A stretch of 64,000 nt of DNA from Noviherbaspirillum soli. GTDB taxonomy: Bacteria; Pseudomonadota; Gammaproteobacteria; Burkholderiales; Burkholderiaceae_D. The position numbers were made by a program, and so were the translations under genes. The notes under the pieces were generated by a model. It saw nothing but the letters and a program-made list of their open reading frames with translations. It searched no databases and had not been told where the DNA came from. The DNA lies in assembly GCF_015352955.1 (NCBI RefSeq), contig NZ_JACYOX010000031.1, positions 1 to 64,000 of the forward strand, read 5' to 3'. Of the stretch, positions 4,222 through 58,735 are shown in pieces (the stretch's first letter is position 1; each line of letters opens with the position of its first letter).

Positions 4222-5513
<1,292 letters not shown>

Positions 5514-5517
5514 CCGG

Positions 5518-6291
5518 TCAGGCCAGCGCCGGATTCAGCGCGGTGGCGTCATCATGCTCGGGCGATATGGCCCGCACGGTCACCACCGAGATGTTGTCGC
5601 GGCCGCCGTGCGCAAGAGCGCACCGCACCAGCTGCTGCGTTGCGGCCCGCACGTCGTGGGCGGCCAGCAGCGCCGCGATGTCCTCGTCCGCGGCTTCATT
5701 GCTGAGGCCGTCGCTGCAGAGCAGGAAGATGTCGCCATGCATCACCCCCAGTTCGACCTCGTCCATGTCGAACTGGTCGGCCACGCCGACCGCGCGGGTG
5801 ATCAGGTTGCGCGCCGGATGGCGCCTTGCCTCTTCGGGCGACAGCAGGCCGCGCGACACCAGTTCTTCCACATGGCTGTGGTCGCGGGTGAGCTGCTGCA
5901 GGCTGCCGTCGCGGTAGAGATAGATGCGGCTGTCGCCGGCCCACAGGCAGATGCAGCGCGCATCGCCAGCCAGCAGCACCGCCGCCGTGCTGCCTATGGT
6001 TTGCACCTCGCGCATGGCCGCCTCCGTCATCAGCCGGCGGTTCACGTCGGCAAGGCAGGCACGGACCTCGGCGGCGCGCGCAGCCAGGTCGCCGTCGCCG
6101 CTCATGCGCGCCAGCGCATCGACCACCATGCGGCTGGCGACGTCGCCCAGCGTATGGCCGCCCATGCCATCGGCCACGGCCCAGAGGCCGCGCTCGGGCT
6201 GCTCCAGGCAGGCGTCTTCATTGACGCTGCGCACCCGGCCCACATCGGAAAGGGAAGCGGATTGCCAACGAAACAGGGATGCTTGCGCCAT
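5518..6291 (-). CDS. PP2C-family serine/threonine phosphatase (Stp-like)
   Basis: This protein of about 257 aa has the PP2C metal-site motifs in order: SDVGRVRSVNEDA, VADGMGGH, GSTAAVLLAG, AGDSRIYLYRDG, DGLSNEAADEDI and a terminal RDNISVVTVR. It has no membrane segment and should be a soluble Mn/Mg-dependent phosphoprotein phosphatase. I prefer ATG 6291 (MAQASLFRW) to 6312. It is the third gene in a - strand series after the two GG-leader peptides, and its stop lies only 4 bases from the convergent sigma54 activator stop. No Ser/Thr kinase is visible in the window, so its substrate is unknown. Placement suggests a regulatory role in the peptide locus. Confidence 0.9.
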   Translation of the reverse strand: MAQASLFRWQSASLSDVGRVRSVNEDACLEQPERGLWAVADGMGGHTLGDVASRMVVDALARMSGDGDLAARAAEVRACLADVNRRLMTEAAMREVQTIGSTAAVLLAGDARCICLWAGDSRIYLYRDGSLQQLTRDHSHVEELVSRGLLSPEEARRHPARNLITRAVGVADQFDMDEVELGVMHGDIFLLCSDGLSNEAADEDIAALLAAHDVRAATQQLVRCALAHGGRDNISVVTVRAISPEHDDATALNPALA

Positions 6292-6443
6292 GGCGGTCTC
6301 CGGGGCGGGCATGGCCAGGCCGGGCGTGCCATGCAGCGGTGCGGAAGCACAGTATAAGGTCGCGCCATGCCGCTTCCACCGCGGCGCTGGCGAGCATTTT
6401 CAACCTGGCTCAATGTTTCGGCGCAGCGTGCCCGCGGGCGGAT

Positions 6444-6728
6444 TCATTTTTGCGTCAGGCCCACCATGGTCGGCACCACGTTCACCGTGGAAGCCGGCGC
6501 CGACGGTCCGACCTCGACGTTGAGCGCCTGTATCGTCATCTGCTCGGCGGTATAGATATTGTTGGTCTGGAAGAAGTTGACGATGGCGCCGGGCGCCCTG
6601 GCCACCGACTCGAGGAAAGGCCGGAAGGAAAATACCCATGGCGCGCCATCGCCGCCGCGCACGGCGCGCATCGATGCGCTGTCCAGCGTGGTAAGGGTGG
6701 CAAGGTCATGGATCATGATGGTGGCCAT
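6444..6728 (-). CDS. Double-glycine-leader secreted peptide A (putative bacteriocin or signal precursor)
   Basis: This 94-aa small protein has a leader of the C39 type: I-H-D-L-A...T-L-D...M-R-A-V-R-G-G with Gly-Gly at 25-26. The predicted core is 68 residues, Cys-free, rich in Val, Asn, Thr and Pro, and starts DGAPWVFSFRPF. Its leader aligns with that of the peptide at 6824-7078 (consensus I[HK]DLAxxxTLDxxxM...GG) although the cores do not resemble each other. SD AAGGAG lies at 6735-6740. It is 95 bases downstream of the second peptide and shares its sigma54 promoter by position. It could be a bacteriocin-like peptide, a signal or a secreted structural peptide. No modification enzyme is adjacent, so unmodified export is plausible. 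Confidence 0.8.
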   Translation of the reverse strand: MATIMIHDLATLTTLDSASMRAVRGGDGAPWVFSFRPFLESVARAPGAIVNFFQTNNIYTAEQMTIQALNVEVGPSAPASTVNVVPTMVGLTQK

Positions 6729-6766
6729 GTCGGTCTCCTTGATTCGAATTCGTTGCGTGCAACAGG

Positions 6767-6812
6767 AAGCCGGGCGGCGGAACTGCGGATGCGTTGCCGC
6801 CGCGCCGGGCTT
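6767..6812. other. Imperfect hairpin between the two peptide genes
   Basis: GC-rich complementary arms lie at 6767-6780 and 6797-6812 (AAGCCGGGCGGCGG against CCGCCGCGCCGGGCTT, with one bulge). A 16-base loop separates them. There is no U-tract on either strand, so it looks like an mRNA-stabilising or attenuating stem rather than a classical terminator. Confidence 0.45.
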
Positions 6813-35819: not shown

Positions 35820-36824
35820 ATGGATACACCCCGCATCGATATCAAACGCCGGCAGCTGCTGCTGGGCGCGGCTTCCGGCCTGGCCGGCGCCGCGCTCCCG
35901 CTCGGCCCGGCGCTGGCGCAGTCGGATTACCCGAACCGCCCGATCACCTTCCTGTGCCCGTGGCCGGCAGGCGGCACCGCCGACGTGACCATGCGCGCGC
36001 TGGCCAAGGTGCTGTCGGACCACCTGGGCCAGCCGGTGGTGTTTGAGAACCGCGCCGGCGCCTCGGGCATGATAGGCGCGCGGGCGCTGGCGGTGGCCAA
36101 GCCGGACGGCTACACCATCGGCCAGATCCCGATCTCGGTGACCCGCTTTGCGCAGCTCGGCACGGTGACCTTCGATCCGCTGAAGGACTTCACCTACCTG
36201 GCCCGCACTTCCGGCCAGACCTTCGGCATCGTGGTGCGCGCCGACTCGCCCTACAAGACCCTGGCCGAGCTGGTGGCCGCCGCCAAGGCCAACCCCGGCA
36301 AGCTGACCTTCGCCAGCGCCGGCGTGGCCGGCGCCACCCACGTGGGCATGGAGGAATTCCTGCTGGCCGCGGGTGTGAGGATGAACCACGTTCCCTACAA
36401 GGGCGGCGCGCCGGCCCTGACCGACCTGATGGGCGGCCAGGTCGATGCGCTGGCCGACTCCAGTTCCTGGGCGCCGTATGTGGAGCAGGGCAAGCTGCGC
36501 CTGCTGGCCACATGGGGCGAGCAGCGTCCGCCGCGATTCGACAAGGCGCCGACGCTGAAGGAAGCCGGCTACAACCTGGTGGTGGATGCGCCCAATGGCA
36601 TCGGCGCGCCGGCCGGACTGGAGCCGCAGGTGGCCGAGAAGCTGCGCTCGGCGCTGAAGAAGGCGATCCTGAGCCCGGAATTCAAGCAGGCCTGCGACCG
36701 CATCGACGCGCCCGTGATGTACCAGGACGCCGAGGACTACCGCAAGTACGTGCTCTCGCAATATGTGAACGAGAAGCGCCTGATCGAGAAGCTCAACCTG
36801 AAGGAACAGATCAAGAACGGTTGA
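35820..36824 (+). CDS. Bug/TctC-family receptor of the aldarate operon
   Basis: This 334-aa protein has a twin-arginine-like or Sec signal with an RRQLLLGAASGLAGAALPLGPALAQ start. Bug-family motifs follow: YPNRPITFLCPWPAGGTADVTMRALAKVL, ENRAGASGMIGARALA, KPDGYTIGQIPISV and VPYKGGAPALTDLMGGQVDALA. As first gene behind the LacI operator it likely binds the sugar acid degraded by the following three enzymes. No permease subunits are encoded here. Confidence 0.92.
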   Translation: MDTPRIDIKRRQLLLGAASGLAGAALPLGPALAQSDYPNRPITFLCPWPAGGTADVTMRALAKVLSDHLGQPVVFENRAGASGMIGARALAVAKPDGYTIGQIPISVTRFAQLGTVTFDPLKDFTYLARTSGQTFGIVVRADSPYKTLAELVAAAKANPGKLTFASAGVAGATHVGMEEFLLAAGVRMNHVPYKGGAPALTDLMGGQVDALADSSSWAPYVEQGKLRLLATWGEQRPPRFDKAPTLKEAGYNLVVDAPNGIGAPAGLEPQVAEKLRSALKKAILSPEFKQACDRIDAPVMYQDAEDYRKYVLSQYVNEKRLIEKLNLKEQIKNG

Positions 36825-36860
36825 GCACCGCTGCGCGATCCGCACCCTTGACCGCATTCC

Positions 36861-38423
36861 ATGAATGGCCAGATGAATACCGTCACCGACAACCACTACA
36901 CCCGCAGCCTGATCCGGCTGCACGATACCGACAACGTGCTGATCGCCAAGGCCCAGCTGTCGCTGGGCCAGCAGATAGCCATCGACGGCGCCGCCGTGCG
37001 GCTGCGGGCGCAGGTGCCGGCCGGGCACAAGGTGGCTGCGCATGCGATCGCCAAGGGCGCCGCGATCCGCAAGTACGACACCATCATCGGCTTCGCCGCG
37101 CGCGACATCGAGGCCGGCGAGCATGTGCACTCGCACAACATCGAGCTGCGCGAATATGAGCGCGACCCCGGCTTCGGCCTGGATGTGCGGCCGGTCGACT
37201 ATGTGCCGGAAAACCAGCGCGCCACCTTCATGGGCATCGTGCGGCCGGACGGGCAGGTCGGCACCCGCAACTTCATCGGCATCTTCTCGTCGGTGAACTG
37301 CTCGGCCACCGCGATCAAGAAGATCGCCGAATGGTTCACGCCGGAGCGCCTGGCCGACTATCCCAACGTGGACGGCGTGGTCGCCTTCGCCCAGACCAGC
37401 GGCTGCGGCATGTCATCGCCCAGCTACCATTTCGACGTGCTGCGCCGGACCATCGCCGGCTATGTGCGCCATCCCAACCTGGCCGGCGCGCTGATCGTGG
37501 GCCTGGGCTGCGAGCGCAACCAGGTGGCTGACCTGGTCGCGTCGCAGGGCCTGAAGGAAGACGGCCTGCTGCGCACGATGGTGATGCAGGAAGTCGGCGG
37601 CACCCGCCAGACCATCGAGGCCGGCATTGCGATGATCAGGGAGATGCTGCCGGCCGCCAATGCGGTGCAGCGCCAGAAGGTGCCGGCCAGCCACATCAAG
37701 GTCGGCCTGGAATGCGGCGGCTCGGACGGCTTTTCCGGCATCACCGCCAATCCGGCGCTGGGCGCGGCGATGGACATCCTGGTGCGCCATGGCGGCACCG
37801 CCATCCTGTCCGAGACGCCGGAAATCCATGGCGTGGAAAACATGCTGACCCGGCGCGCGGTATCGCCGGAAGTGGGCCAGAAGCTGCTGGACCGGCTGGA
37901 ATGGTGGAAGGAATACACCCGCGGCCAGAACGCCCAGTTCAACGGCGTGGTAGGCCATGGCAATCAGCAGGGCGGCCTGGCCAACATCTTCGAGAAGTCG
38001 CTCGGCTCGGCCATGAAGGGCGGCACCACCCCGCTGCAGGGCGTCTATGAATATGCCGAGCCGATCGACCGCGCCGGCTTCGTGTTCATGGACTCGCCCG
38101 GCTACGACCCGGTGGCCGCCACCGGCCAGATCGCCAGCGGCGCCAACCTGATCTGCTTCACCACCGGCCGCGGCTCGATGTTCGGCTCCAAGCCCGCGCC
38201 GACCATCAAGCTGGCCAGCAATACCGCGATGTACGAGCGGCTGAAGGAAGACATGGACATCAACTGCGGCCTGGTGATCGATGGCGAGGCAACCATGCAG
38301 CAGATGGGCCAGATCATCTTCGACGAGATCCTGCGCGCTGCCTCCGGCGGGCCGACCAAGAGCGAGCTGCTGGGCCTGGGCGACCATGAATTCATCCCCT
38401 GGCATCTGGGCGTGGTCAGCTAA
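36861..38423 (+). CDS. UxaA/GarD-family sugar-acid dehydratase
   Basis: This 520-aa protein joins an N-terminal SAF-type domain (LHDTDNVLIAKAQLSLGQQI...PAGHKVA) to the large dehydratase domain. That domain shows GIVRPDGQVGTRNFIGI, SGCGMSS, GLGCERNQ, GLECGGSDGFSGITANPALG, GNQQGGLANIFEKSLGS, FTTGRGS and DMDINCG. The family includes altronate (UxaA) and galactarate (GarD) dehydratases, which are iron-dependent. With a HpaI-type aldolase and aldehyde dehydrogenase downstream, an aldarate route is likely. The exact substrate is open. ATG 36873 is an alternative start. Confidence 0.88.
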   Translation: MNGQMNTVTDNHYTRSLIRLHDTDNVLIAKAQLSLGQQIAIDGAAVRLRAQVPAGHKVAAHAIAKGAAIRKYDTIIGFAARDIEAGEHVHSHNIELREYERDPGFGLDVRPVDYVPENQRATFMGIVRPDGQVGTRNFIGIFSSVNCSATAIKKIAEWFTPERLADYPNVDGVVAFAQTSGCGMSSPSYHFDVLRRTIAGYVRHPNLAGALIVGLGCERNQVADLVASQGLKEDGLLRTMVMQEVGGTRQTIEAGIAMIREMLPAANAVQRQKVPASHIKVGLECGGSDGFSGITANPALGAAMDILVRHGGTAILSETPEIHGVENMLTRRAVSPEVGQKLLDRLEWWKEYTRGQNAQFNGVVGHGNQQGGLANIFEKSLGSAMKGGTTPLQGVYEYAEPIDRAGFVFMDSPGYDPVAATGQIASGANLICFTTGRGSMFGSKPAPTIKLASNTAMYERLKEDMDINCGLVIDGEATMQQMGQIIFDEILRAASGGPTKSELLGLGDHEFIPWHLGVVS

Positions 38424-38503
38424 TTGTTTGTGCCGGCATTGCCCCACGGTCGCCGATCGCTTAGGATCGACGCCGTCCCATTCCTTTTCCTTTTCGATAC
38501 GCC

Positions 38504-40000
38504 ATGACCCTGAACATTGACAACCCCGAGCTGCTGTGCAGCCAGAGCCTGATCAACGGCGAGTGGCGCCATGCCGCCGACGGCCGCCGCCTCGCGGTGA
38601 CCAATCCCGCCAGCGGCGAGCTGATCGCCGAGGTGCCCGACTGCACGCCTGAAGACGCGCAAGCCGCGGTGGATGCGGCGCAGCATGCCTTTGCCGCGTT
38701 CCGCCATGTGGTCGCGAAGGACCGTGCCGCGCTGCTCCGGCGCTGGCATGGGCTGGTGATGGCCAACCAGGAAGACCTGGCGCGGCTGATGTCGCTGGAG
38801 CAGGGCAAGCCGCTGGCGGAAAGCCGCACCGAGGTGGCGTACGGCGCGTCCTATATCGAATGGTTCGCCGAGGAAGCCAAGCGCGTCGACGGCGACATCA
38901 TTCCGCAGCAGAGCCAGAACCACAGGCTGCTGGTGATCAAACAGCCGGTCGGCGTGGTGGCTGCCATCACGCCCTGGAACTTCCCGATGGCCATGCTGGC
39001 GCGCAAGATCGCGCCGGCCATTGCCGCCGGTTGCGCCGTGGTCTGCAAGCCCGCCGAAGACACCCCGCTGACCGCGCTGGCAATGGCGCGCCTGCTGCAG
39101 CAGGCGGGCGCGCCCGCCGGCCTCGTCAATGTGCTGACCACCTCGCGCGAGCGCGCCGGTCCGCTGGCCGACGTCTGGCTGGCCGATGCCCGGGTGCGCA
39201 AGATTTCCTTCACCGGCTCCACCGCAGTCGGCAAGCATCTGGCGCGCGAGAGCGCCGGCACGCTGAAGCGGCTGTCGCTGGAACTGGGCGGCAATGCGCC
39301 CTTCATCGTGTTCGACGATGCCGATATCGATGCCGCGGTGGCCGGCCTGATGGTGGCCAAGTTCCGCAATGCCGGCCAGACCTGCATTTGCCCCAACCGC
39401 GTCTATGTGCAGCAGGGCGTGTATGAGCGTTTCATCGGCAAGCTGGCCGAGAAGGTCGGCAGCCTGAGCATAGGCCCGGCATCTGGCGGCAAGGCCGAGA
39501 TCGGCCCGCTGATCAATGCCCGCGCGGTGGAAAAGGTGGAGCAGCATGTGAAGGATGCGCTGGCGCAGGGCGCGCGGCTGGTGGTGGGCGGCCAGCGCCA
39601 TGCCTGTGCCGAAGCGCCCAACGGCCATTTCTTCACGCCCACGGTGCTCGCCGATGTCACCGCCGCGATGCGCATGTCGTGCGAGGAAACCTTCGGCCCG
39701 GTGGTGCCGGTCACGCCCTTCGCCACCGAGGCGGAAGTGGTGGACATGGCCAATGCCACGCCGTTCGGCCTGGCCGCCTATTTCTACTCGCGCGACATCG
39801 ACCGCATCTGGGAAGTGGCCGAGGCGATCGAGGCCGGCATGGTGGCGGTCAACGACGGCGCATTGTCGACCGAGATCGCGCCGTTCGGCGGCGTCAAGGA
39901 TTCCGGTTATGGCCGCGAAGGATCGCGCTATGGCCTGGACGAGTACATGAACATCAAGTACATCCGCCACGGCAGCCTGTCGCGCCGCCTGCCCGGCTGA
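38504..40000 (+). CDS. NAD(P)-dependent aldehyde dehydrogenase
   Basis: This 498-aa protein has the ALDH motifs [46 protein letters not shown] and the general base in [16 protein letters not shown]. The nucleophile Cys is in [13 protein letters not shown], and [10 protein letters not shown] is present. It resembles succinate-semialdehyde and 2,5-dioxovalerate dehydrogenases, the latter fitting an oxidative aldarate pathway to 2-oxoglutarate. It is third in the LacI-controlled operon. Confidence 0.92.
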
Positions 40001-40025
40001 ACAACATCAAGAAACCGGAGACAAC

Positions 40026-40832
40026 ATGAGCTACGACAACCGCTTCAAGGCCGCGCTGGCCGCCAAAAACCCGCAGATCGGCCTCTGGCTATCGCTGGCC
40101 AATTCCTACACCGCCGAGCTGTGCGCCAGCACCGGCTTCGACTGGCTGCTGCTCGACAGCGAGCATGCGCCCAATGATGTGCGCGCCATCCTGCAGCAGC
40201 TGCAGGCGGTGGCGCCGTATCCCTCGCATCCGATCGTGCGCCCTGTCACTGGCGACGTGGCATTGATCAAGCAGCTGCTCGACATCGGCGCCCAGACCCT
40301 GCTGATCCCGATGGTGGACACGGCAGAGCAGGCCGCCCACATGGTGTCGGCGGTGCGCTATCCGCCAGAGGGCATACGCGGCGTCGGCGCCGCCGCCGCG
40401 CGCGCCTCGCGCTGGGGCCTGCGCACCGACTACCTGGCCCGCGCCAACGACGAGGTGTGCCTGCTGGTGCAGGCCGAGACCCGCACTGCGCTGGACAACA
40501 TCGAAGCCATCTGCGCGGTCGATGGCATCGATGGCGTCTTCATCGGCCCGGCCGACCTGTCGGCCTCGCTCGGCCATCGCGGCAATCCGGGCCATCCGGA
40601 AGTGCAGGCGGCGATCGAGGACGCCATGCGCCGCATCATCGCCACCGGCAAGGCGGCTGGCACCCTGGTGTCGGACAATGCGCTGGCGCGGCGCTACCTC
40701 GACCTTGGCTGCACTTTTGTTGCGGTGGGACTGGAAGCTCGCCTGCTGGCAGTGGCCGCGCGCGAATTGCGCGCCGAGTTTGGCGGTGCCGCGCCGGCGG
40801 CCGCGGCGGATGGGGTGCCGGCGATTTATTAG
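40026..40832 (+). CDS. HpcH/HpaI-family class II aldolase
   Basis: This 268-aa protein carries [33 protein letters not shown], the metal-binding Glu/Asp set in [11 protein letters not shown]...[15 protein letters not shown], and [17 protein letters not shown]. This is the 2-dehydro-3-deoxyglucarate (GarL) / 4-hydroxy-2-oxoheptanedioate aldolase family, splitting a 2-oxo-4-hydroxy acid into pyruvate and an aldehyde. It is the last gene of the aldarate-type operon (26-base gap) and borders the low-GC island. Confidence 0.92.
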
Positions 40833-40847
40833 GGCGACGCTGGAGAA

Positions 40848-40931
40848 TTAACGCATCTCTTCAATCAGGCGGGCGGCGAGCTGGCATAGTTCGTCGGCGT
40901 TTAGGACGGAGAAGCCGAGTGCAGAAGTCAT
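40848..40931 (-). pseudogene. Possible IS66-type transposase remnant (N-terminal scrap)
   Basis: A 27-residue frame reads MTSALGFSVLNADELCQLAARLIEEM and then stops. The LNADELxQLAARLIEE part resembles the beginning of IS66-family TnpC proteins. The remaining bases to 41184 hold only broken frames (for example a - strand piece with GQLQALVTVPSARTLAADHAI) and no intact gene. The assignment rests on memory of the family and is weak. The scrap marks the left edge of the AT-richer island. Confidence 0.3.
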
Positions 40932-41184
40932 GAGTGGCACTGTGCTAGGACAATTGCCGCGTATGCACAGAACCTTTATCCGTACTGGCGTTAAATCACC
41001 GCAATGGCATGATCAGCCGCCAGCGTCCTCGCTGATGGCACGGTGACCAGTGCCTGCAACTGCCCGGTATCGAGCGCTAGGGTCACAGCTGATCCCGTTT
41101 AGTCCAGACGATGCGGCCGTCATTGAGGCGGCGAGTTAGCCCGCAATACACGGCACGGATGTCCGCATGTGATCTTTAGGCCGA

Positions 41185-42381
41185 TCACTGCGAAGTGGAT
41201 GACCGTATCGATTTCGATATGAGGCCATAGTCGAGCAGCTTTTCTAGTGCGATGTTGATATCCGACCAACCCATATCAGCTTCTGCTAAGCCTAATAGGT
41301 CGTCTGTAGATACGCTCCGGTCATGATAAAGATTGCTAAACACTCTAAACTCGCACCGGTTTAGAGTATGTTTTTTTCCTAGCGCAAGGATCACGTGTTC
41401 TTTTGATGAGTCGTCGATCAATGTCACTTCCCTTGCTGTGAATGGAACTCGTCTGAAAAAATCGCCAACCTGAGGTCGATTCAGATGCGGAAATGAAGGT
41501 TGAACTCGAAATGCCGCGTATTGCGCGTAGTACGAATCCAAGAAAGTCGCTATCGATTCCGTGTTAATTGCGGCCGCAAAGAATCCAGCAGATTTTTTGG
41601 CTAGAGAGTCGAGAACATCATTACTTAGTTTTATATCCTGGTATGGTAGTTCGTATTTGTGTTGAGCCAGCAACCACTGCACATAGTCGGCCACTGTCGG
41701 ATAAACAACGCTAATTGTCAAATGGAGGCTAGGCTCGTTAATTGCCACCACATCATGCCAAGTCCCTTTTGGTATAAATAGGACATCTCCTTCGTTTAGA
41801 ATAAGTATTTCAGAGACGTTTTCCTCGATCGGTTGCTTGATATCGTCAACTGTTGCCATAGTTGACTTCTCTTTTGTTCCAAAAAAGCGCCAGCTCTTTC
41901 GCCCCTCAATCTGCATGACGATGACGTCGTGGTCGTCGTTATGAGGGCCAAATCCAGAGCTCAACCCAAATGAGAAATAGGCATTCGCTGTGGAGCGTGC
42001 ATAGTATCGAGCACCAATCACTTCAGTAAAAGCGCCGATGTCTGGAAATAGTTCATTGGCGGCTTCGAGAACACCTGTAACTCCTTGCGCCAGCAAGCGG
42101 TGAAGCTCATTAATTGAGAGAGAGTCAGTAGGGCGCCCGAATGCATCGCGAACCTTGCGGAATGCCTGATTGTTAGGCTGTTCGTAATCATTTTCTATTG
42201 ACAAGCGTAGGCGATCATTCGTTATTCTATTTGTCGCCAATGCATGATTTAGGTGTTGCCACGAGAACAGATTGAGCATTTGCGCTCTAGAAATTTTGCT
42301 TTTCCAAAACTGTGAATTACTATAGGCATTAGTAAAGTCGCTATTTGCTAAAAGTTCAGCTGCTAAAGATTCGCCATGCAT
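41185..42381 (-). CDS. JmjC/ROX-like 2-oxoglutarate oxygenase (putative peptide hydroxylase)
   Basis: This 398-aa protein has a JmjC/cupin-8-type fold signature with an HxD pair at H147/D149 (FGPHNDDHDVIVMQIEGRKSW) and the distal iron His at H209 (EGDVLFIPKGTWHDVV). A Lys suited to 2-oxoglutarate is at 162. The C-terminal third (about 300-398) looks like the winged-helix tail of bacterial ROX (YcfD) ribosomal oxygenases. Real YcfD is a lone housekeeping gene. This copy is AT-rich, diverged, and last in a - strand series of peptide, HExxH protein, ABC transporter and oxygenase. It therefore probably modifies the small peptide, perhaps on its Asn-rich C-terminus. Confidence 0.8.
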   Translation of the reverse strand: MHGESLAAELLANSDFTNAYSNSQFWKSKISRAQMLNLFSWQHLNHALATNRITNDRLRLSIENDYEQPNNQAFRKVRDAFGRPTDSLSINELHRLLAQGVTGVLEAANELFPDIGAFTEVIGARYYARSTANAYFSFGLSSGFGPHNDDHDVIVMQIEGRKSWRFFGTKEKSTMATVDDIKQPIEENVSEILILNEGDVLFIPKGTWHDVVAINEPSLHLTISVVYPTVADYVQWLLAQHKYELPYQDIKLSNDVLDSLAKKSAGFFAAAINTESIATFLDSYYAQYAAFRVQPSFPHLNRPQVGDFFRRVPFTAREVTLIDDSSKEHVILALGKKHTLNRCEFRVFSNLYHDRSVSTDDLLGLAEADMGWSDINIALEKLLDYGLISKSIRSSTSQ

Positions 42382-42392
42382 AGAAGTCTCTT

Positions 42393-43751
42393 TTAATGTC
42401 TGATCTCGATGACGAGGAGCTTTGAGGCAATTTCGTCCAAAAGTTGATTGACTGTTTCCCTATTGCAGTGGTCAAGATTAGCGTCCCATTCATCAAATAA
42501 AACGACTCTGACATCATTCCCGCTCACTATCTCGCGTATTTGTTGCAAGGTTCTTTGTCCCGTTGAATGATTGGGGTTGCCGTCTCTCCATATAAGTCGC
42601 CCGTGATGTGCGGGCAGCATAATTGCCGACTCGCCGAAAAATTTCTTTAAAACCAGAAGTAGTGTGCTTTTCCCAGAGCCATTTCCGCCGCGAATCGTAA
42701 ACCGACCCTTCTGGACGGGTTTAAGCGCTTCCACCACGGATTCATAGTCATTGATCCGTTGCCCATTAAGAGTGATTTTTGATAGCGGTTTCGCAGGCAA
42801 GTCATCTTCTGACAACAAAAGATTTTCTGCCCTGAACATGACTTCGAGACGCGCATTCATAGACGGCCATTCCAATAGTTGACTCACCAAAGAACTAAGG
42901 GAATTTAGAATATGGAACACACGGGTAAGGTTGACAATAATTGCCGCAACCAATGCGGGCTGGGCTGCATTGTTTTCCACAGCGCTTAATACTAAATAAA
43001 TGGTAGGGCCTAATGCTGCTGCCGCCAGAATGAGATTTCCGCATTGTTTTAGCGACTGGAGATCATTGGATCCCTTGTAATAATTTTCTCCTAGGTCCTG
43101 GCTTTGAAATGCCCAATTATTATAATTAAGTTTGTTGCCAAGGGTAGTATTGTCCCAAATCGACGACAAGCTGTCGCTGTAGCTGATAAAGCGCCTCTCA
43201 TTCTCTGCTGAGTAGGTGCTGATCGCCTTGTTGACCAAAAGAATGAATGCGGCGCAAAGAATCACACTGAGGAAATAGCCGCCGAATAGATTGCCAGGAA
43301 GGAGCAATCCAAGTACGAGCATACTCAGTGCGCTATTCAAGACAAAGCCTAAAAATCCATGAACAAATGACAAATATTCTTTGATAGTAATGAACGAGTT
43401 CCGGGAAACTATCGATTCAACCTGTTCCCGAACGATCGAATTACGAAATTTCTCTGTCCGTCCATAGGCAGTCTGCGCAATCCCATAGATAAGGCTTTTA
43501 TGTGCCTGATTAATCCAGCGTTGCAGAGATATAAAGGAAAGACACCCAGGAAGATAGGGAATTAACATCGCGGCGAGATATAAATACAGGTAATGACTGT
43601 ACTCATCGCCTTGCTGAAACGATTCAATCAGCCTTGTCAGAAAATAGGATGACGAAGCGATTATCGACTGATGGATAGTTATAAGGGCTATAGTCAATAA
43701 TGCAGATGGATGCCTGAATACTGTAAGCCATCTTTGCCAATTCAGGCTCAT
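42393..43751 (-). CDS. ABC exporter with a shortened ATPase domain
   Basis: This 452-aa protein has an N-terminal transmembrane domain of about six segments (residues about 15-290). Its ATPase domain has Walker A GGNGSGKST (355-363), a non-canonical signature STGQR (396-400), Walker B VVLFDEWD (416-423) and a final His that could be the H-switch (VIEIRH). Only about 33 residues separate Walker A from the signature, where typical ABC ATPases have about 90-100, so the helical subdomain is largely missing. It lies between the HExxH gene (53-base gap) and the oxygenase gene (11-base gap) and is the obvious exporter of the peptide. No C39 peptidase domain is present. Confidence 0.82.
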   Translation of the reverse strand: MSLNWQRWLTVFRHPSALLTIALITIHQSIIASSSYFLTRLIESFQQGDEYSHYLYLYLAAMLIPYLPGCLSFISLQRWINQAHKSLIYGIAQTAYGRTEKFRNSIVREQVESIVSRNSFITIKEYLSFVHGFLGFVLNSALSMLVLGLLLPGNLFGGYFLSVILCAAFILLVNKAISTYSAENERRFISYSDSLSSIWDNTTLGNKLNYNNWAFQSQDLGENYYKGSNDLQSLKQCGNLILAAAALGPTIYLVLSAVENNAAQPALVAAIIVNLTRVFHILNSLSSLVSQLLEWPSMNARLEVMFRAENLLLSEDDLPAKPLSKITLNGQRINDYESVVEALKPVQKGRFTIRGGNGSGKSTLLLVLKKFFGESAIMLPAHHGRLIWRDGNPNHSTGQRTLQQIREIVSGNDVRVVLFDEWDANLDHCNRETVNQLLDEIASKLLVIEIRH

Positions 43752-43804
43752 AGTTGTTCTTTATTCATAATGATAGGCGCTGATAGCCTGTACGCGATTA
43801 ACAT

Positions 43805-44674
43805 TCAGGCTGATAAAGCTTTGACCTGCCGTTGTACGTTATGGAAAATTTCGTTCGCGCGTTCTGTAAATATTTTCCCGGCTCCTTTGTATTGCAAAAG
43901 CACCTTTTCAGTGGCAGCAATCGCGTCCTTCAGTTGAGTCAGCATGATATTGGTAGGCGGGTGGACTTTGGTCAGCACAGGATGGCCTATGTAATTTGCT
44001 CGCATAAGTAGTATTTCTGTTGCAACAACTGCGCTGTGCAAAACTTTATCGAGTGGCCGTGGTACGTTGAGAATCGCCGATAGTGCCCATGTAGATTTAT
44101 CCATTACATCGCTATAGCAATAATGGACGTAACGCAATTCATCGATGAACATCGCATGATGGGTCATTTCATGCACCAGAATCTCTATCATGTCATGCAG
44201 GGAGTACGTCGTTTTGGGATTGGCCCAAATTACGCCAATCGCTTGGGAAGTCGAGCCGGCTTTAGCCCGGGAGGATGGTAATATAAAAATATCGGTAATT
44301 AAAGTCTCAAGCAGCGCCTTGTGTACCTCGGAGTAAAGTCCCAACTCATGGATGGCGCGAAGGATAAGAGCCTTTTTATCAGTTGCTTCGTCATCTTTCG
44401 TTTCGGTGATGACATCCGCCTGCATTTTATCGTCTAGTAAAGAATCATTAACGAACAGCGGTCGAAGTGTTTTTGCCTTCTCAAAATCGGTAATAACGTT
44501 CACCGTGCCTGGCGCGCCGCCGGGAGTTCTCATTTGCATTTTTTGGATTAGTGAATGGTATTCAGTTTGGACTTCTTTCAAAGTAGTAATTTTCTTAGCC
44601 CTGTTGAAATCAATCGTTCCAATTAAATTTAACACATTATCGATTTGTGATTCAAATCCGAATTGCAGAATCAT
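43805..44674 (-). CDS. HExxH-motif putative peptide-modifying protein (alpha-ketoglutarate beta-hydroxylase type)
   Basis: This 289-aa protein has LVHEMTHHAMF with HExxH at 168-172. About 30 residues later comes STWALSAILNVPRPLDKVLHSAVVATEILLMR (PRP at 205-207, His 213). HExxH plus a later PRPL...H is the layout of the mod_HExxH family found in RiPP clusters, some members of which are described as alpha-ketoglutarate-dependent peptide beta-hydroxylases. A plain zinc protease is the alternative. SD AGGAGG (44681-44686) is strong. It directly follows the 53-aa peptide gene across a hairpin, supporting action on that peptide. Confidence 0.72.
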   Translation of the reverse strand: MILQFGFESQIDNVLNLIGTIDFNRAKKITTLKEVQTEYHSLIQKMQMRTPGGAPGTVNVITDFEKAKTLRPLFVNDSLLDDKMQADVITETKDDEATDKKALILRAIHELGLYSEVHKALLETLITDIFILPSSRAKAGSTSQAIGVIWANPKTTYSLHDMIEILVHEMTHHAMFIDELRYVHYCYSDVMDKSTWALSAILNVPRPLDKVLHSAVVATEILLMRANYIGHPVLTKVHPPTNIMLTQLKDAIAATEKVLLQYKGAGKIFTERANEIFHNVQRQVKALSA

Positions 44675-44711
44675 AGATATCCTCCTAAGTTATTTCCTTG
44701 ATCGGTCTTTT

Positions 44712-44744
44712 TTTACACGTTCCCTTTGATAGGGAACGTGTAAA
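44712..44744 (-). other. 14-bp stem-loop between precursor and modification genes
   Basis: TTTACACGTTCCCT (44712-44725) and AGGGAACGTGTAAA (44731-44744) form a perfect 14-bp stem with a 5-base loop, 6 bases after the precursor stop in the direction of transcription. An A-run rather than a T-run follows on the - strand. It is therefore better read as a partial terminator or 3'-end protector that raises precursor mRNA over downstream genes. Confidence 0.7.
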
Positions 44745-44750
44745 CATCAT

Positions 44751-44912
44751 TTACTTCTGATCTTCGTAGGCGATCATGTTCAGTGGCTGGTTCATGTTCC
44801 AAGCACGTCCTTCGATTTGACTAGCGACTTCTTGACTAGCAATAGCGACGTCTTTTTCGTTCACATTCGAAGCGGCAGATTTTACGACCGAATCAAAATT
44901 GATCTTGTTCAT
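44751..44912 (-). CDS. RiPP-like precursor peptide (53 aa)
   Basis: The peptide starts MNKINFDSVVKSAASN and ends AWNMNQPLNMIAYEDQK. ATG 44912 is chosen because AAAGGA (44920-44925) lies 7 bases upstream; a longer in-frame start at 45038 has no such site. The N-terminal 30 residues look like an amphipathic helical leader. The last 18 hold one Trp, one Tyr, four Asn and one Asp, typical hydroxylation targets. It has no Cys and no Gly-Gly leader site. It heads the HExxH, ABC and JmjC genes. A precursor role comes from size, position and the hairpin, not homology. Confidence 0.7.
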   Translation of the reverse strand: MNKINFDSVVKSAASNVNEKDVAIASQEVASQIEGRAWNMNQPLNMIAYEDQK

Positions 44913-45769
44913 GCAATGGTCCTTTAAGTTAAATGCCATCAATTCGATGGCGACACTATTATTACAATCCGCAGCGGCACTTTTAACTATTATTAAAGCT
45001 TGCTTCACTTGTTTGGGCAGGAACTGCCATGGCTTCAAAAGGTTTTTAAAAGAACTAAAGGGTGTCTCTAACTTCTTGACCGATTTAGTTCCTCTGTCCA
45101 GCCAAGAAATTCAGGATGCAGGAATGGGAAGGCTATCGTTGATAACGAATTATGGGGACTGATTGGTAATGTCCGCTGCCTCCGAAGCCGAGGCGGTTCA
45201 GCTATCCCGGGCGTATCCCCCTATCGCGCCATACCGCGCTGACGGCCAGCTGACATGCTCGGGAGCGGCCTGGGTTGGACCGAGCCAACAGGTGTAATGG
45301 CTTATGGTTCAGATCTGGGCTGCTAGCGTCGGCTAAGCAAGTGACAGCAAGCCGGCGTAACGGAGCGGTGGCAATGCGTATTGCCGTCCAGGCTGCGCGC
45401 TCCTAATCGCCTCGATATTTTCCGCGTTATCGTCGATGCTGATTTTTCACTTCGTGCTGTTGGGGCGGGGATCAAAAGCAGTTCTGAATCCCGCTGATCG
45501 TGCGCCGCCAGAGTTCAGGCAGCCTCTTGCCACCGCCGCAAATAGCACACAGCTCGTCGCGATCCAGGCTGGCGCCAATCGTAATAACGTCACCCGGCTT
45601 GCGCCGCCGGAGGCTGCAATCTCGCCCATTGTGTACGGTTGCGGCTTTGCGCTCCAGAGTTACCGGTCTAGGAAAATTGGCCACAGCGGTATCGCTGCAG
45701 CCGCATGCGGGTATGAAGAATTAATGGGCATGCGGTGCACGAGACTTTGGTGACCGATGTGGTCAGTGC
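44913..45769. other. Region without a confident gene at the right edge of the island
   Basis: The first 200 bases are AT-rich and should contain the precursor promoter (a weak - strand pair TTAAAA / TAATAA near 44962-44989). From about 45180 the composition returns to high GC. Several short frames overlap on both strands (45436-45753 on +, 45447-45684 on -), none with a Shine-Dalgarno or recognisable motif. It looks like decayed sequence. Confidence 0.5.
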
Positions 45770-46768
45770 CTAGCACCCGCCGCGCCGCTTCGTCCGCGCC
45801 TCGGTCACGAAGTACACCACGCAGGCCAGCAGCAGCGGCGCCAGGTAATACAGGAAGCGATACAAAATCAGCGCGGCCAGCAACTCATTGCGGCCCAATT
45901 GCTGCGACAGCAGCGCAATGAACACCGCTTCCAGCACGCCCAGGCCGGCCGGCACATGGGTGATCACGCCGGCGATGGCGGCGGTGAGCAGCACCGCCAC
46001 CACGGTGGGAAAGTCGATCTTCCGCTGCAGCAGCAGATACACCAGTCCCGACATCAGCAGCCAGTTGGCGCTGGAAACCAGCAACTGCACCACCGCCAGC
46101 CTCCATGGCGGCAGCGTGATGCCGTGGCCGCGCAGCGTCCAGTCGCGCTGTTTCGCGAAGGCGCACAGCAGCACATAGGCCAGCGCCGCGGCCACCATCG
46201 CCATGCCCACCAGGCGCAGTCCGCCGCTGTCGAGCTTCCACTCGTCCGGCAGCGGCAGGGGCCGCCACCAGAACGCCAGCCCGGCCAGCAGCAGGTAGCC
46301 GCTCCAGTTGGTCAGCATGCTGTTGGCGGCAATGCGGGTAATGACCGTGCTGTCGAGGCCAAAACGCGAATACAGCCGGTAGCGCATGGCGACGCCGCCG
46401 ATTACGCTGCCCAGGTTCAGGTTGAACGCATAGCAGACGAAGGTGATGCCCATGACTGTCTTGGCCGGCAGCCTGTGTCCCGTGAGATGCTTGCCCATCA
46501 GGTCAAAGCAGGCATAGAGCAGGTGGCTGGCAGCCGCTAGGCCGGCCGCTGCCAGCAGCGCGGGCACGCTGCGCTGGTAGATCGCCGCCGCGACCTTGTC
46601 CCATTCGATCGACCTGGCCTGCCTGAACAGCAGGTAAGCAACCAGGGCAAGGAAGCAGATCTTGAGCAGGCGCTTGGTCCAGTGCCACCAGGGCTTTGTC
46701 TGCCGCGCTGATTGTTCCCCCGCCGGCCGCCGTTCCCGCAGGCTCGCGGTGTCGCCGCTGGCGCTCAT
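45770..46768 (-). CDS. ybhN: YbhN/UPF0104-type flippase-like membrane protein
   Basis: This 332-aa protein has about eight membrane segments of the lysylphosphatidylglycerol-synthase TM family (FLALVAYLLFRQARSIEWDKV, GITFVCYAFNLNLGSVIGGVAMRYRLYSRFG, ITHVPAGLGVLEAVFIALL, LILYRFLYYLAPLLLACVVYF). It overlaps the clsB stop by ATGA, reproducing the clsB(ybhO)-ybhN order of E. coli. A role in phospholipid handling next to cardiolipin synthase is inferred. Confidence 0.88.
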   Translation of the reverse strand: MSASGDTASLRERRPAGEQSARQTKPWWHWTKRLLKICFLALVAYLLFRQARSIEWDKVAAAIYQRSVPALLAAAGLAAASHLLYACFDLMGKHLTGHRLPAKTVMGITFVCYAFNLNLGSVIGGVAMRYRLYSRFGLDSTVITRIAANSMLTNWSGYLLLAGLAFWWRPLPLPDEWKLDSGGLRLVGMAMVAAALAYVLLCAFAKQRDWTLRGHGITLPPWRLAVVQLLVSSANWLLMSGLVYLLLQRKIDFPTVVAVLLTAAIAGVITHVPAGLGVLEAVFIALLSQQLGRNELLAALILYRFLYYLAPLLLACVVYFVTEARTKRRGGC

Positions 46769-48051
46769 TGCATCGCCGACTGGTTCAGGTCGCCGGCACC
46801 ATCAGGATTGTCCGGCGCGCGCAGCGAGGCCAGGCGCGGCGTGTGCGCCGGCAGGAAGCCGGCCCAGGAGGGATAGCGGCGCAGCAGATGAAACAGGAAG
46901 AAGGTGCGTATCGGCCGCCAGGTATCGGATTCCTGCAGATCCTTGATGTCGATCCGGGTGCAGCTGTGCTGCATCAGGTTTTCCAGGCTTGCGCTCAGCT
47001 GCGCATTGAAGGCGGGGTCGTGGATCATTACATTGGCTTCGAGGTTCAGCGACAGGCTGAGCGGGTCGAGATTGCTGGAACCGACCGTGGCCCAGGTGTC
47101 GTCCACCAGCGCGACCTTGCCATGCAGCGGACGCTTGCAGTACTCGTGGATTTCGACGCCCGAACCGAGCAGGTGGTGATACAGCATGGAAGCCGCGGTC
47201 TTGACAATGGCCATGTCCGGCGTGCCCTGCAGGATTAGCGCCACTTTCACGCCGCGCCGCGCCGCCTTGCGCAGTTCGCGCAGGAAGCGATAGCCGGGGA
47301 AGAAATAGGCGTTGGCCACGATGATGCGTTCCCGCGCAAGCCGGAACGCCAGGCGGTACTGGCGCTCGATGTCATTCTTGTGTTCCTGGTTGTCACGCCA
47401 GACAAACAGCGCGCGGGCATCGCCAGCCGAAGGCAGGGAAGCCGGCTGCGGCCATTTCGGACGGCGATGAAACCAGCGGCGCTTCGGGGTTTCGCCAGCC
47501 ACGGCAGCCAGCGCGAAGCTGTGGATATGGGCCACGATCGGACCTTCGACTTCGACTGCATAATCCTGCTTGGCCTCGGGGCCGAAATCCGCCAGGTGGT
47601 CCGCCGAGTAATTGATGCCGCCGATGAAGGCGCGTTTGCCGTCCACCACCACCAGCTTGCGGTGCATGCGGCGAAACACATGGAATCGGCGAAACAGCTT
47701 GGGCGCAGGCTGGAACACATGGAAGATCACGCCGGCCTCGATCAGGGAGCCGATGAAGCTGTCCGACAGGTCGGGAGAGCCCCAGCCGTCAATCGTCAGC
47801 TCGATGCGCACCCCGCGCCGGGCGGCAGCCAGCAGGGTTGCATGCAGTTCGCGCCCCACCTTGTCCTCGAACAGGATGAAGGTCTCGATCAGCACTTCCC
47901 GTTCCGCTGCCGCGATCACTTCGAAGACACGCGGAAAGAAAGCCTCGCCGTTCTCCAGCAGCGTGAATCGGTTTCCGCTTATCCAGTTTTCTTTCACGGG
48001 CAGTGCTTTCGTTGGGGTTGTTGTCGATGATGCCGCTGCGACGGGCAGCAT
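46765..48051 (-). CDS. clsB: Cardiolipin synthase B (phospholipase D family)
   Basis: This protein of about 428 aa has two HKD motifs: HRKLVVVDGKRAFIGGINYS and HGKVALVDDTWATVGSSNLDPLSLSLNLEANV. FILFEDKVGRELHATLLAAARRGVRIE and YFFPGYRFLRELRKAARRGVKVALILQG match ClsB (YbhO) closely in order and spacing. It condenses phosphatidylglycerol with another phospholipid at the inner membrane. The start is uncertain: ATG 48126, ATG 48051 and GTG 47997 are all possible, and the family begins near the WISGNRFTLLENGE segment. It is translationally coupled to ybhN. Confidence 0.9.
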   Translation of the reverse strand: MLPVAAASSTTTPTKALPVKENWISGNRFTLLENGEAFFPRVFEVIAAAEREVLIETFILFEDKVGRELHATLLAAARRGVRIELTIDGWGSPDLSDSFIGSLIEAGVIFHVFQPAPKLFRRFHVFRRMHRKLVVVDGKRAFIGGINYSADHLADFGPEAKQDYAVEVEGPIVAHIHSFALAAVAGETPKRRWFHRRPKWPQPASLPSAGDARALFVWRDNQEHKNDIERQYRLAFRLARERIIVANAYFFPGYRFLRELRKAARRGVKVALILQGTPDMAIVKTAASMLYHHLLGSGVEIHEYCKRPLHGKVALVDDTWATVGSSNLDPLSLSLNLEANVMIHDPAFNAQLSASLENLMQHSCTRIDIKDLQESDTWRPIRTFFLFHLLRRYPSWAGFLPAHTPRLASLRAPDNPDGAGDLNQSAMQ

Positions 48052-48342
48052 GGACGCAATGCAGGCTGTACGGGCATGAACTGCAATGTGCCTCAAAAGG
48101 CCCGAAAGCGTCGTGCATTTGATCAACGAAAAGGCAAATGCTCCTCGTGACCCGACCGATGTCGTTCAATGCCGAATGGAAAGCCGGCAACCTTGGCGCA
48201 TGCATGAAATAAACCACCTGCACGGCGCTGAAGGTTGAAGGCGCGGGGCTTAGGCAGTAGACTCTGGCCGGGACTTGCCGGACGCCGCTTCGCAGCGCGC
48301 TGCCACATCTTCCTGCCTATAAATATCAATAAGGAGCAACAC

Positions 48343-48672
48343 ATGCAGACCCCCCGCCTCATCGCCGTTATCGCCGCCGCCCTGATCGCCACTGGATGCG
48401 CCGGAATGAAGGACACGGCTGACACCAGCAAGGCTTCCCAGCAGGGCGCCGGCCAGGCGATGGACGACAGCGCCATCACCGCGCGCGCCAAGGGCGCCTT
48501 GCAGGCAGACCCGGAACTGAATGCATTCAAGATCGACGTCAGCACCAGCGCCGGCGTGGTCAAGCTCAAGGGCGACATCAAGTCGCTGGCGCTGCGCCGC
48601 AAGGCCGAGGCGCTGGTCAAGGCAGTGCCGGGCGTGAAGTCGATCGACAACCAGATGATCATCACCGGCTAA
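48343..48672 (+). CDS. BON-domain lipoprotein
   Basis: This 109-aa protein starts at ATG 48343 after AAGGAG. The signal peptide ends in a lipobox (ALIATGCAG), so Cys becomes lipidated. One BON domain follows (DDSAITARAKGALQADPELNAFKIDVSTSAGVVKLKGDIKSLALRRKAEALVKAVPGVKSI, seen in pieces). BON proteins are periplasmic or outer-membrane attached and bind phospholipid, often under osmotic stress. It lies beside the cardiolipin genes but on the opposite strand. Confidence 0.9.
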   Translation: MQTPRLIAVIAAALIATGCAGMKDTADTSKASQQGAGQAMDDSAITARAKGALQADPELNAFKIDVSTSAGVVKLKGDIKSLALRRKAEALVKAVPGVKSIDNQMIITG

Positions 48673-57424: not shown

Positions 57425-58735
57425 ATGCTTAAACAGATAGATACAGCTGAGTTACAGCTAGGCATGTATGTAGCCAAGATCAGCGAAAGCTGGTTTGAGT
57501 CACCATTCTGGCGCTCAGCATTTTTGCTATCTAATGAACAGGATATTCACACCCTGTTGGAGCACGGTTTTACCAGCGTATGGATCGATACGAGCAAGGG
57601 AATCGATCTCGAATCCATCCCCGCGCAGTTCTCGACTGATAGTGAAGCGAAGCCTGAAAATGATGTTTCGAATGCAGATGGTGTCGCTAATAAGGCTGAG
57701 TCACCTTTAACGACAATACCCCTGGAAAGCAAAAGTCGCGCGGAATCGTATGGCTTTGGCGATCCTCGGCCAGTCGCGCCGGACGAGCCACGGCCGGCGC
57801 CATTGGATACCGAGCGGGCGCGCGCAGCAGCTATCTGCGGTAAGGCGCGACGCGCAATGGTGGCTATGTTTCAGGAATTACGCATGGGCCGGGCGGTCGA
57901 TGCGCAAACCATGTTGCCGGTGGTCGATGAGATTTCCCAATCGGTTTTGCGAAATTCCGATGCGCTGATCGGCTTGGTGCGTCTTAAGACCAAAAACGAT
58001 TATACCTATATGCATTCGGTGGCTGTTTGCGCGCTGATGGTAGCTCTTGCTCGCCAACTAGGCCTGGCCGAGAGTATCGTGCAGGAGGCTGGCTTGGCTG
58101 GCTTGCTTCATGACATTGGCAAGATGGTTGTACCGAATGACATCCTCAACAAGCCAGGCTCACTTACCGACGATGAGTTCCGAATCATCAAGTCGCACCC
58201 AATGTCTGGGCACCGGATTCTAATGCAGGGGCAAGGAGTGTCTGAAGGTGCCCTTGACGTGGTGTTGCATCACCATGAAAAATGGGATGGCTCAGGTTAT
58301 CCGCATGGACTGGCTAGCGAGCAAATCAGCCGCTTAGCGCGCATGGGCGCTGTCTGCGATGTCTACGACGCACTTACATCGAACAGACCGTACAAGGAAG
58401 GATGGTGTCCGAACAAGGCAATCCGCCAGATGGCAGGCTGGAAAGGTCACTTTGATCCAGTGATTTTCCAAGCGTTCGTCAAAAGTGTGGGGATCTACCC
58501 CGTTGGCACTCTGGTTCGCCTGGAATCGGGCCGGCTTGGCGTAGTTATGCAGCAAGGGCGTAATTCCCTGCTGCAGCCGCAAGTCAAGATCTTTTTCTCG
58601 ACGAAGTCAATGACACATATCGCCCCGGAAGTGTTGGATCTGGCAGCGTCACATGCGCGTGACAAGATTGTTGATTGGGAAAATCCGGATAAGTGGAAAT
58701 TCAAAAATCTCGATCAAATGTGGGTGCATGGCTGA
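57425..58735 (+). CDS. HD-GYP c-di-GMP phosphodiesterase with DUF3391 domain
   Basis: This 436-aa protein has an N-terminal DUF3391-like region (IDTAELQLGMYVAKISESWFESPFW...FLLSNEQDIHTLLEHGFTSVWID). A Pro/Glu-rich linker with low sequence complexity follows (about 75-135). The HD-GYP domain carries HDIGK (LLHDIGKMVVPNDILNKPG), IKSHPMSGHRIL and the intact HHHEKWDGSGYP. It should hydrolyse c-di-GMP to GMP, in contrast with the GGDEF/EAL protein at 29651-32356. Codon use is less GC-rich than in the core genes. Confidence 0.93.
   Translation: MLKQIDTAELQLGMYVAKISESWFESPFWRSAFLLSNEQDIHTLLEHGFTSVWIDTSKGIDLESIPAQFSTDSEAKPENDVSNADGVANKAESPLTTIPLESKSRAESYGFGDPRPVAPDEPRPAPLDTERARAAAICGKARRAMVAMFQELRMGRAVDAQTMLPVVDEISQSVLRNSDALIGLVRLKTKNDYTYMHSVAVCALMVALARQLGLAESIVQEAGLAGLLHDIGKMVVPNDILNKPGSLTDDEFRIIKSHPMSGHRILMQGQGVSEGALDVVLHHHEKWDGSGYPHGLASEQISRLARMGAVCDVYDALTSNRPYKEGWCPNKAIRQMAGWKGHFDPVIFQAFVKSVGIYPVGTLVRLESGRLGVVMQQGRNSLLQPQVKIFFSTKSMTHIAPEVLDLAASHARDKIVDWENPDKWKFKNLDQMWVHG

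Follow-up and report, generated by a model that had tools for sequence, protein, structure and literature searches.

A predicted RiPP gene cluster of Noviherbaspirillum soli with an aKG-HExxH-type hydroxylase, a NO66/MINA-like JmjC oxygenase and a compact ABC transporter

Background

The biphenomycin gene clusters encode both a JmjC hydroxylase (BipG/BpmG) and an alpha-ketoglutarate HExxH (aKG-HExxH) hydroxylase (BipH/BpmH) (PMC12707348, PMC12257519); here and below, statements on described systems follow excerpts of the cited papers. Enzymes of the aKG-HExxH type have been reported to act on His, Asp, Phe, Gln and Pro (PMC13060819), and PflC and PosC of Pseudomonas cleave the peptide backbone before the Ala of an ARMD motif and amidate the new end (PMC12636437). 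The RRE, the recognition element of ribosomally synthesised and post-translationally modified peptides (RiPPs), is defined by three strands followed by three helices; bacterial relatives of PF08007 proteins that have an RRE-like fold occur in RiPP-like contexts (PMC12710340). Here, a 64,000-nucleotide stretch of the Noviherbaspirillum soli genome (contig NZ_JACYOX010000031.1, positions 1 to 64,000; hereafter the window) was analysed, in which four minus-strand genes at 41185-44912 encode, in order, a 53-amino-acid peptide, an HExxH protein, an ATP-binding cassette (ABC) protein and a JmjC protein. With a probability of about 0.72, and as predicted from genes and models, these form a horizontally acquired RiPP cluster in which two oxygenases modify the precursor peptide and the ABC protein exports it.

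Results and discussion

A four-gene cluster on a low-GC island

The intergenic gaps are 76 nt (precursor to HExxH), 53 nt (HExxH to ABC) and 11 nt (ABC to JmjC). A first-pass annotation of the same DNA had described four closely spaced minus-strand open reading frames (ORFs) in AT-richer DNA, and all four lie where it placed them; the GC content of 41185-44912 is 0.44, against 0.63 for the whole window, and most other 2-kb windows range from 0.62 to 0.69. A second low-GC stretch (0.50-0.56) spans 56-64 kb of the window and includes an HD-GYP-like ORF (57425-58735, read by eye). The cluster lies on a genomic island (40829-45778) that appears as a gap in comparison with a genome of the same genus (G015, locus L033), to which positions 36001-40828 of the window align at 92.0 % and 45779-48577 at 86.6 %, with 97 bases between both flanks where the window has the 4.95-kb island. 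This spacing implies that 4.95 kb were gained or lost at one site; gain is favoured by the low GC content, and the cluster was probably acquired horizontally. The comparison is with one genome, the flank gene having been sought in three other genomes of the genus, with a match at 88 % in G015, one at 27 % only in G055 and none in G078.

The same gene order recurs elsewhere. Thirteen distinct loci, the window included, all have the precursor-HExxH-ABC order and an L(N/R)MI motif in the precursor (13/13), the precursor homologues of the 12 further loci standing in the same place. Because both the gene order and a homologous small gene are found in other genera, the cluster goes beyond a chance arrangement. 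A JmjC gene is present in seven of the thirteen (the window, L011, L012, L013, L014, L015 and L016), its frame being broken in one of the seven, and absent from six (L009, L017, L022, L025, L034 and L050). The HExxH gene of L009 is split. The first-pass annotation had read the locus as a RiPP-like operon and had named homologous loci lacking a conserved small gene as evidence to the contrary; the neighbourhood searches found that gene in the related loci, with homologous precursors and, in those with JmjC, a near-invariant core.

The precursor peptide

The small ORF (44751-44912, minus strand; 53 amino acids plus stop) is a real gene, with a leader of about residues 1-37 and a core of about residues 38-53. 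The conserved core WNMNQPLNMIAYEDQK (44754-44801, minus strand; residues 38-53) is variable at its last residue, and five of the seven loci with JmjC share one sequence at residues 38-52, WNMNQPLNMIAYEDQ; single changes occur in L011 (D51G) and L016 (P43R), so that this stretch hardly varies among several genera. Over all pairs of these seven loci, residues 38-52 have a synonymous proportion of differences (pS) of 0.94 and a nonsynonymous proportion (pN) of 0.017 (pN/pS 0.018), and leader residues 2-37 a pS of 0.76 and a pN of 0.359 (pN/pS 0.47). Beside genes for modifying enzymes, the locus thus has, as expected of a RiPP cluster, a small precursor that is conserved, its leader being variable and its core fixed. 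The C-terminal end had been called Asn/Asp-rich at first pass, which holds loosely: the last 15 residues (NMNQPLNMIAYEDQK) include three Asn and one Asp, and also two Gln and one Glu. Precursors of loci without JmjC carry PLRMI(A/S)(Y/F)(D/E/N)(D/E) close to the C-terminal end, and the residue before MI is Asn in 7/7 loci with JmjC and Arg in 6/6 without it.

The HExxH protein

The second gene (43805-44674, minus strand) encodes a predicted aKG-HExxH-type peptide hydroxylase of 289 amino acids. It scores 67.7 bits (cut-off 40) against TIGR04267, the NCBI model for aKG-HExxH peptide hydroxylases, which is matched by 8/8 aligned members with E values of at most 1 (lowest 3.2e-25). The best Foldseek match of its AlphaFold2 model (predicted local distance difference test, pLDDT, 89.4) is the HExxH oxygenase domain of ChlB (8s5f; E 1.1e-8, TM-score 0.53 by query); the superposition has a root-mean-square deviation of 10.8 over 320 columns, so that the match is to the core and not to the whole. 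SjiH, on which a literature search turned up no title of relevance, is the fifth match (E 2.1e-5), the first peptidase appears only at 5.7e-3, and no solved structure was related to the protein by sequence at E 10. HEMTHH occupies residues 168-173 (HExxH codons 44159-44173) and PRPLDKVLH residues 206-213. Residues H168, E169, H172 and H213 are conserved, with HExxH intact in 7/8 rows and H213 in 8/8; the exception, L011 from a Duganella metagenome-assembled genome, has Tyr for the first His. His213 (44036-44038) is the probable third metal ligand.

Profile and ChlB fold agree with the first-pass assignment to the mod_HExxH/aKG-HExxH type, and the opposite outcome it had named, scoring as an ordinary zinc protease, was not obtained, peptidases coming far behind in the fold search. 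Sequence and model thus support an aKG-HExxH-type oxygenase, and an ordinary zinc protease is unlikely by TIGR04267 score and fold. In a related alternative, the protein would mainly be a zinc protease for leader removal, leaving JmjC as the sole oxidiser of the peptide; a weak SprT-like match (15 bits, cut-off 25.6) and the hydrolysis of leaderless peptide by PflC (PMC12636437) are consistent with this, which we consider very unlikely given the TIGR04267 results and the fold matches to ChlB and SjiH. In addition, no gene for another modifying enzyme was noticed in the ORF lists of the loci without JmjC, read by eye, so that the HExxH enzyme would be the sole one there.

The JmjC protein and its relatives

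The last gene (41185-42381, minus strand; 398 amino acids) encodes a predicted NO66/MINA-like JmjC oxygenase. It matches PF08007 (JmjC_2) at 82.7 bits (cut-off 22), as do 6/6 members, and carries HND at residues 147-149 (H147 and D149) with the distal H209. Its relatives by sequence in the PDB are NO66, MINA and YcfD, followed by a YcfD-like protein and YxbC; the fold search with its model (pLDDT 76.8; predicted TM-score, pTM, 0.64) placed NO66 (best), MINA and YcfD first, then YxbC and FIH. The earlier reading as a JmjC protein like the ribosomal oxygenases (ROX) with an intact HxD...H triad is thus corroborated by family and by structure. In an alignment of six cluster proteins, three Streptomyces proteins and six presumed housekeeping ROX, the triad is present in 15/15 rows, and K162, a position that we take to be a 2-oxoglutarate-binding residue, is common to the cluster and Streptomyces rows and is Arg in the six presumed housekeeping ROX. 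The tree places the cluster and Streptomyces proteins in one group (100/100), apart from those six, with a tool warning on long branches and on the letter composition of the Streptomyces sequences.

Plasmid records matching the JmjC protein numbered 133. In three Streptomyces plasmids (L053 6799-8179, L054 6731-8074 and L055 6710-8143), a small gene stands beside a JmjC_2-like gene annotated as cupin domain-containing; in 3/3 neighbourhoods read, a small ORF ending in DGGGTG(R/K)xDGND lies directly upstream of the JmjC gene (two of these ORFs are annotated, and the third was found in the present analysis), and an aldo/keto reductase gene follows it in 2/3. These loci possibly represent a second RiPP family with a JmjC protein of the same clade.

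Fold and sequence family would also fit a JmjC gene that is a passenger in the cluster and whose product, a ribosomal oxygenase, modifies ribosomal proteins and not the peptide. This is highly improbable: a separate ROX-like gene exists in each of the four JmjC-containing genomes scanned (4/4), the cluster proteins branch as a distinct clade next to Streptomyces JmjC proteins whose genes follow small ORFs, and the JmjC gene begins 11 nt past the ABC gene. The C-terminal region (41209-41460, minus strand) is modelled as a winged-helix-like, possibly RRE-like domain of strands followed by three helices (block pLDDT 55-87). The strand and helix order of the RRE occurs within it, with one preceding strand, at modest pLDDT; winged-helix and PqqD-related profile matches to this region are weak and below cut-off (PqqD_rel_X E 0.019, 1/6 members).

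The ABC protein

The third gene (42393-43751, minus strand) encodes an ABC half-transporter of 452 amino acids with a shortened ATPase domain, judged from motif alignment and the spacing between Walker A and signature. Walker A (GxNGxGKS/T), signature (STGQ/STGE), DEWDAN and the terminal E(I/V/T)RH are conserved in eight aligned rows, the variants being STGE in L013, GKT in L017 and four extra residues past the last His in L014. The protein thus has the Walker A, signature, Walker B and H-loop of an ABC exporter, the motif names being assigned by eye; it scores 17.1 bits against PF00005 (ABC_tran), below the cut-off of 25. The Walker A-signature spacer is 33 amino acids in 11 and 35 in one of 12 distinct cluster ABC proteins, against 79, 96, 98 and 104 in four other proteins with the same motif pattern, and its length implies that the helical subdomain is probably much reduced. 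No C39-type peptidase family was among the listed matches. In L025 (6413-8677; G609), the HExxH and compact ABC proteins are fused in one ORF of 754 amino acids.

A hairpin downstream of the precursor gene

The lowest-energy fold of the gap between the precursor and HExxH genes contains a stem-loop in 12/12 loci; in the window it lies at 44712-44744 (minus strand) and is followed by an A run. With shuffles as the sole control, two or fewer of 200 were as stable as the native fold in 8/12 loci, with counts of 9/200 in both L012 and L025, 35 in L016 and 51 in L034. As the window stem is followed by an A run and not by a U run, a stabilising or processing role is more likely than that of a terminator.

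Distribution of the cluster and related loci

The closest relative (L011 7777-10777), at 81 % in the HExxH protein, looks decayed, with Tyr in HExxH, D51G in the precursor and the JmjC frame broken near the contig end; it was kept in the precursor counts. Matches to the HExxH protein were found in 5/294 genomes of the family (four with this cluster type), 3/399 of the order (one weak), 2/268 in the family of G609 and 2/379 in the family of G341 (weak and partial, 7-8e-4). At E 1e-10, there were matches in 4/149 genomes in the genus of the L017 genome and 2/60 in that of the L012 genome, the second Cupriavidus match being L013 again, by coordinates. The window's own genome has one HExxH gene of the cluster type. 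A single-protein search of genome contigs found nothing, an alignment search of genome contigs returned seven loci (L015 and L016 being L007 and L008 again), and a class-level ABC alignment search at E 1e-20 returned the window's genome only (1/274). Among plasmids there were six matching records; two are Acinetobacter plasmids of identical score, L022 being one of them. Carriage by phages was considered and rejected, the pattern matches in viral contigs including no HExxH relative, and the JmjC protein giving four matches only (24-30 %, partial coverage).

Whole-genome scans of four loci without JmjC (G111, G609, G994 and the genome of L017) returned only distant ROX genes (20.8-38.3 bits); for L022 the search covered the plasmid and found none there, and for G1703 the check covered a 14-kb stretch. 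After the JmjC gene of the Herbaspirillum locus L007, LuxR-type regulator-like and thiamine-phosphate-synthase-like ORFs were seen by eye (5272-6768). In the stretch from 40000 to 46800 of the window, no Rfam element reached the gathering score; a promoter scan, with 6 sites against 7.0 in shuffles, was set aside.

Several matches were excluded from the members. These include the weak HExxH match of G004 (L020; L026), the Staphylococcus and Nocardia plasmid matches, L051 (G1702), which lacks the L(N/R)MI motif and in which the end of the contig comes shortly past the ABC gene, and L010 (G158) and L052 (G1648), which are other kinds of HExxH loci. In L010 (8069-9972), a different HExxH gene (395 amino acids) lies just downstream of an ORF with two AQYVWGSQ copies and a variant, perhaps a multi-core precursor. 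A Staphylococcus aureus plasmid (L024 5716-7549) has two adjoining genes annotated as HEXXH putative peptide modification proteins beside an MFS transporter gene.

A proposed pathway

The 53-residue precursor would comprise the N-terminal leader and the fixed C-terminal core. The aKG-HExxH enzyme may beta-hydroxylate a residue of L(N/R)MI(A/S)(Y/F) or of the following acidic pair; as it is common to clusters with and without JmjC, it most likely acts on the shared core segment. On the residues reported for such enzymes (PMC13060819), Asp51 comes first, a tentative choice but the best single guess. The JmjC enzyme, present only where the core has WNMNQxLN, may add a second hydroxylation in that stretch, with Asn45 as the best guess and Asn39 or Asn41 as the next. 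Its winged-helix domain would probably help to hold the leader, a protease outside the operon would remove the leader, and the compact ABC protein would export the product, with whatever bioactivity it may have.

Instead of simple hydroxylation, and still within a RiPP cluster, the HExxH enzyme could trim the peptide by oxidative backbone cleavage as PflC and PosC do, attacking at Ala48 to leave a C-terminal amide at Ile47 with loss of AYEDQK. Position 48 is Ala or Ser in 12/12 aligned precursors, and no protease ORF was seen by eye in the island, as this would allow. Yet ARMD and the run of three Gln are absent from 12/12 precursors, conservation extends over residues 49-51, which cleavage would shed, and position 48 is Ser in 2/12, an Ala-to-Ser change that kept the backbone intact in PosA (PMC12636437); cleavage therefore appears unlikely, and hydroxylation by both oxygenases is preferred.

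Several observations weigh against the proposed pathway. No regulator, immunity gene or leader peptidase was seen among the ORFs of the island, read by eye. L051 has HExxH and ABC genes with a divergent small ORF that lacks the L(N/R)MI motif. The loci with JmjC fall on one side of a branch in the HExxH (support 77/86) and ABC (94/94) trees of 12 rows without L050; as they form one clade, the Asn/Arg rule may reflect one evolutionary event, and its link to JmjC presence is suggestive and no more. The one RiPP-cluster JmjC enzyme with an assay considered here, BipG, has ornithine as its substrate, Arg and Asn not being hydroxylated (PMC12707348, PMC12257519), and the nearest solved ROX are named as His and Arg hydroxylases, which makes the Asn target a guess. 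PF05402 gave no match on the JmjC gene, and the comparison of its C-terminal region with one PqqD-like stretch was negative, leaving the RRE reading of this domain a weak one.

Bolder, and rather doubtful, is the idea of a peptide class built only by two unrelated 2-oxoglutarate oxygenase folds, of which the NO66/MINA-type JmjC enzyme bears its own RRE-like leader-binding winged helix. If true, the winged helix of ribosomal oxygenases, human ones included, and the RRE would be the same module, and the whole NO66-like clade of cluster and Streptomyces proteins would consist of RiPP enzymes and not ribosome modifiers. Through gene order and phylogeny, the locus itself ties JmjC proteins of the ribosomal-oxygenase type to genes for small peptides, and it brings to light an exporter in which much of the Walker A-signature stretch of the ATPase domain has been lost. 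As a compact natural test bed, it combines a precursor with one exporter and two oxygenases whose folds are unrelated, and counterpart clusters without one of the oxygenases exist.

Comparison with known systems

The first-pass annotation knew of no described system with this enzyme pair, a claim that falls: the pair is already known from biphenomycin. The bip and bpm clusters resemble the present one in that one peptide is modified by JmjC and aKG-HExxH hydroxylases (PMC12707348, PMC12257519), the likeness to BipG being drawn at the level of JmjC and not of PF08007. The bip cluster has in addition a multinuclear non-haem iron-dependent oxidase (MNIO), a B12 radical S-adenosylmethionine (SAM) enzyme and an enzyme of the arginase type; its transporter belongs to the MFS and its protease to the TldD type, and its precursor has an FRF core. 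No such extra genes were seen in the island, judging from the families of the four genes and the ORF list, and FRF is absent from 12/12 precursors. The pfl and pos clusters of Pseudomonas share an aKG-HExxH enzyme (PflC/PosC), a small precursor, transporter genes and the lack, as far as the excerpted description goes, of an in-cluster protease (PMC12636437). They feature a Gln run with ARMD, an MNIO-nitroreductase and a GNAT protein, whereas the present cluster has an L(N/R)MIAY core, JmjC in one branch and one compact ABC protein, neither a precursor with Gln run and ARMD nor an MNIO-nitroreductase being found among its precursors and island genes.

ChlB shares its predicted fold with the HExxH protein of the window and differs in being fused to a radical SAM enzyme and in having a cyclophane as substrate (PMC12636437), the cluster enzyme standing alone or, in G609, fused to ABC. 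The ribosomal oxygenases NO66, MINA and YcfD share the JmjC domain, the HxD...H triad and a C-terminal winged-helix region; the cluster JmjC protein differs in its place in a peptide operon and in Lys against Arg at position 162, and the presumed housekeeping ROX are distant from it (43.5-55.5 bits, blastp). The PF08007-RRE fusions (PMC12710340) likewise combine JmjC_2 with a possible RRE-like winged helix in a RiPP-like context, the passage concerned mentioning contexts and describing no such cluster. Full-text literature, as covered by titles, abstract openings and passages with most subscription journals outside coverage, yielded no paper describing this cluster. Set beside these systems, three features look new: the minimal layout, the family of precursors and the ABC protein with its much shortened ATPase domain.

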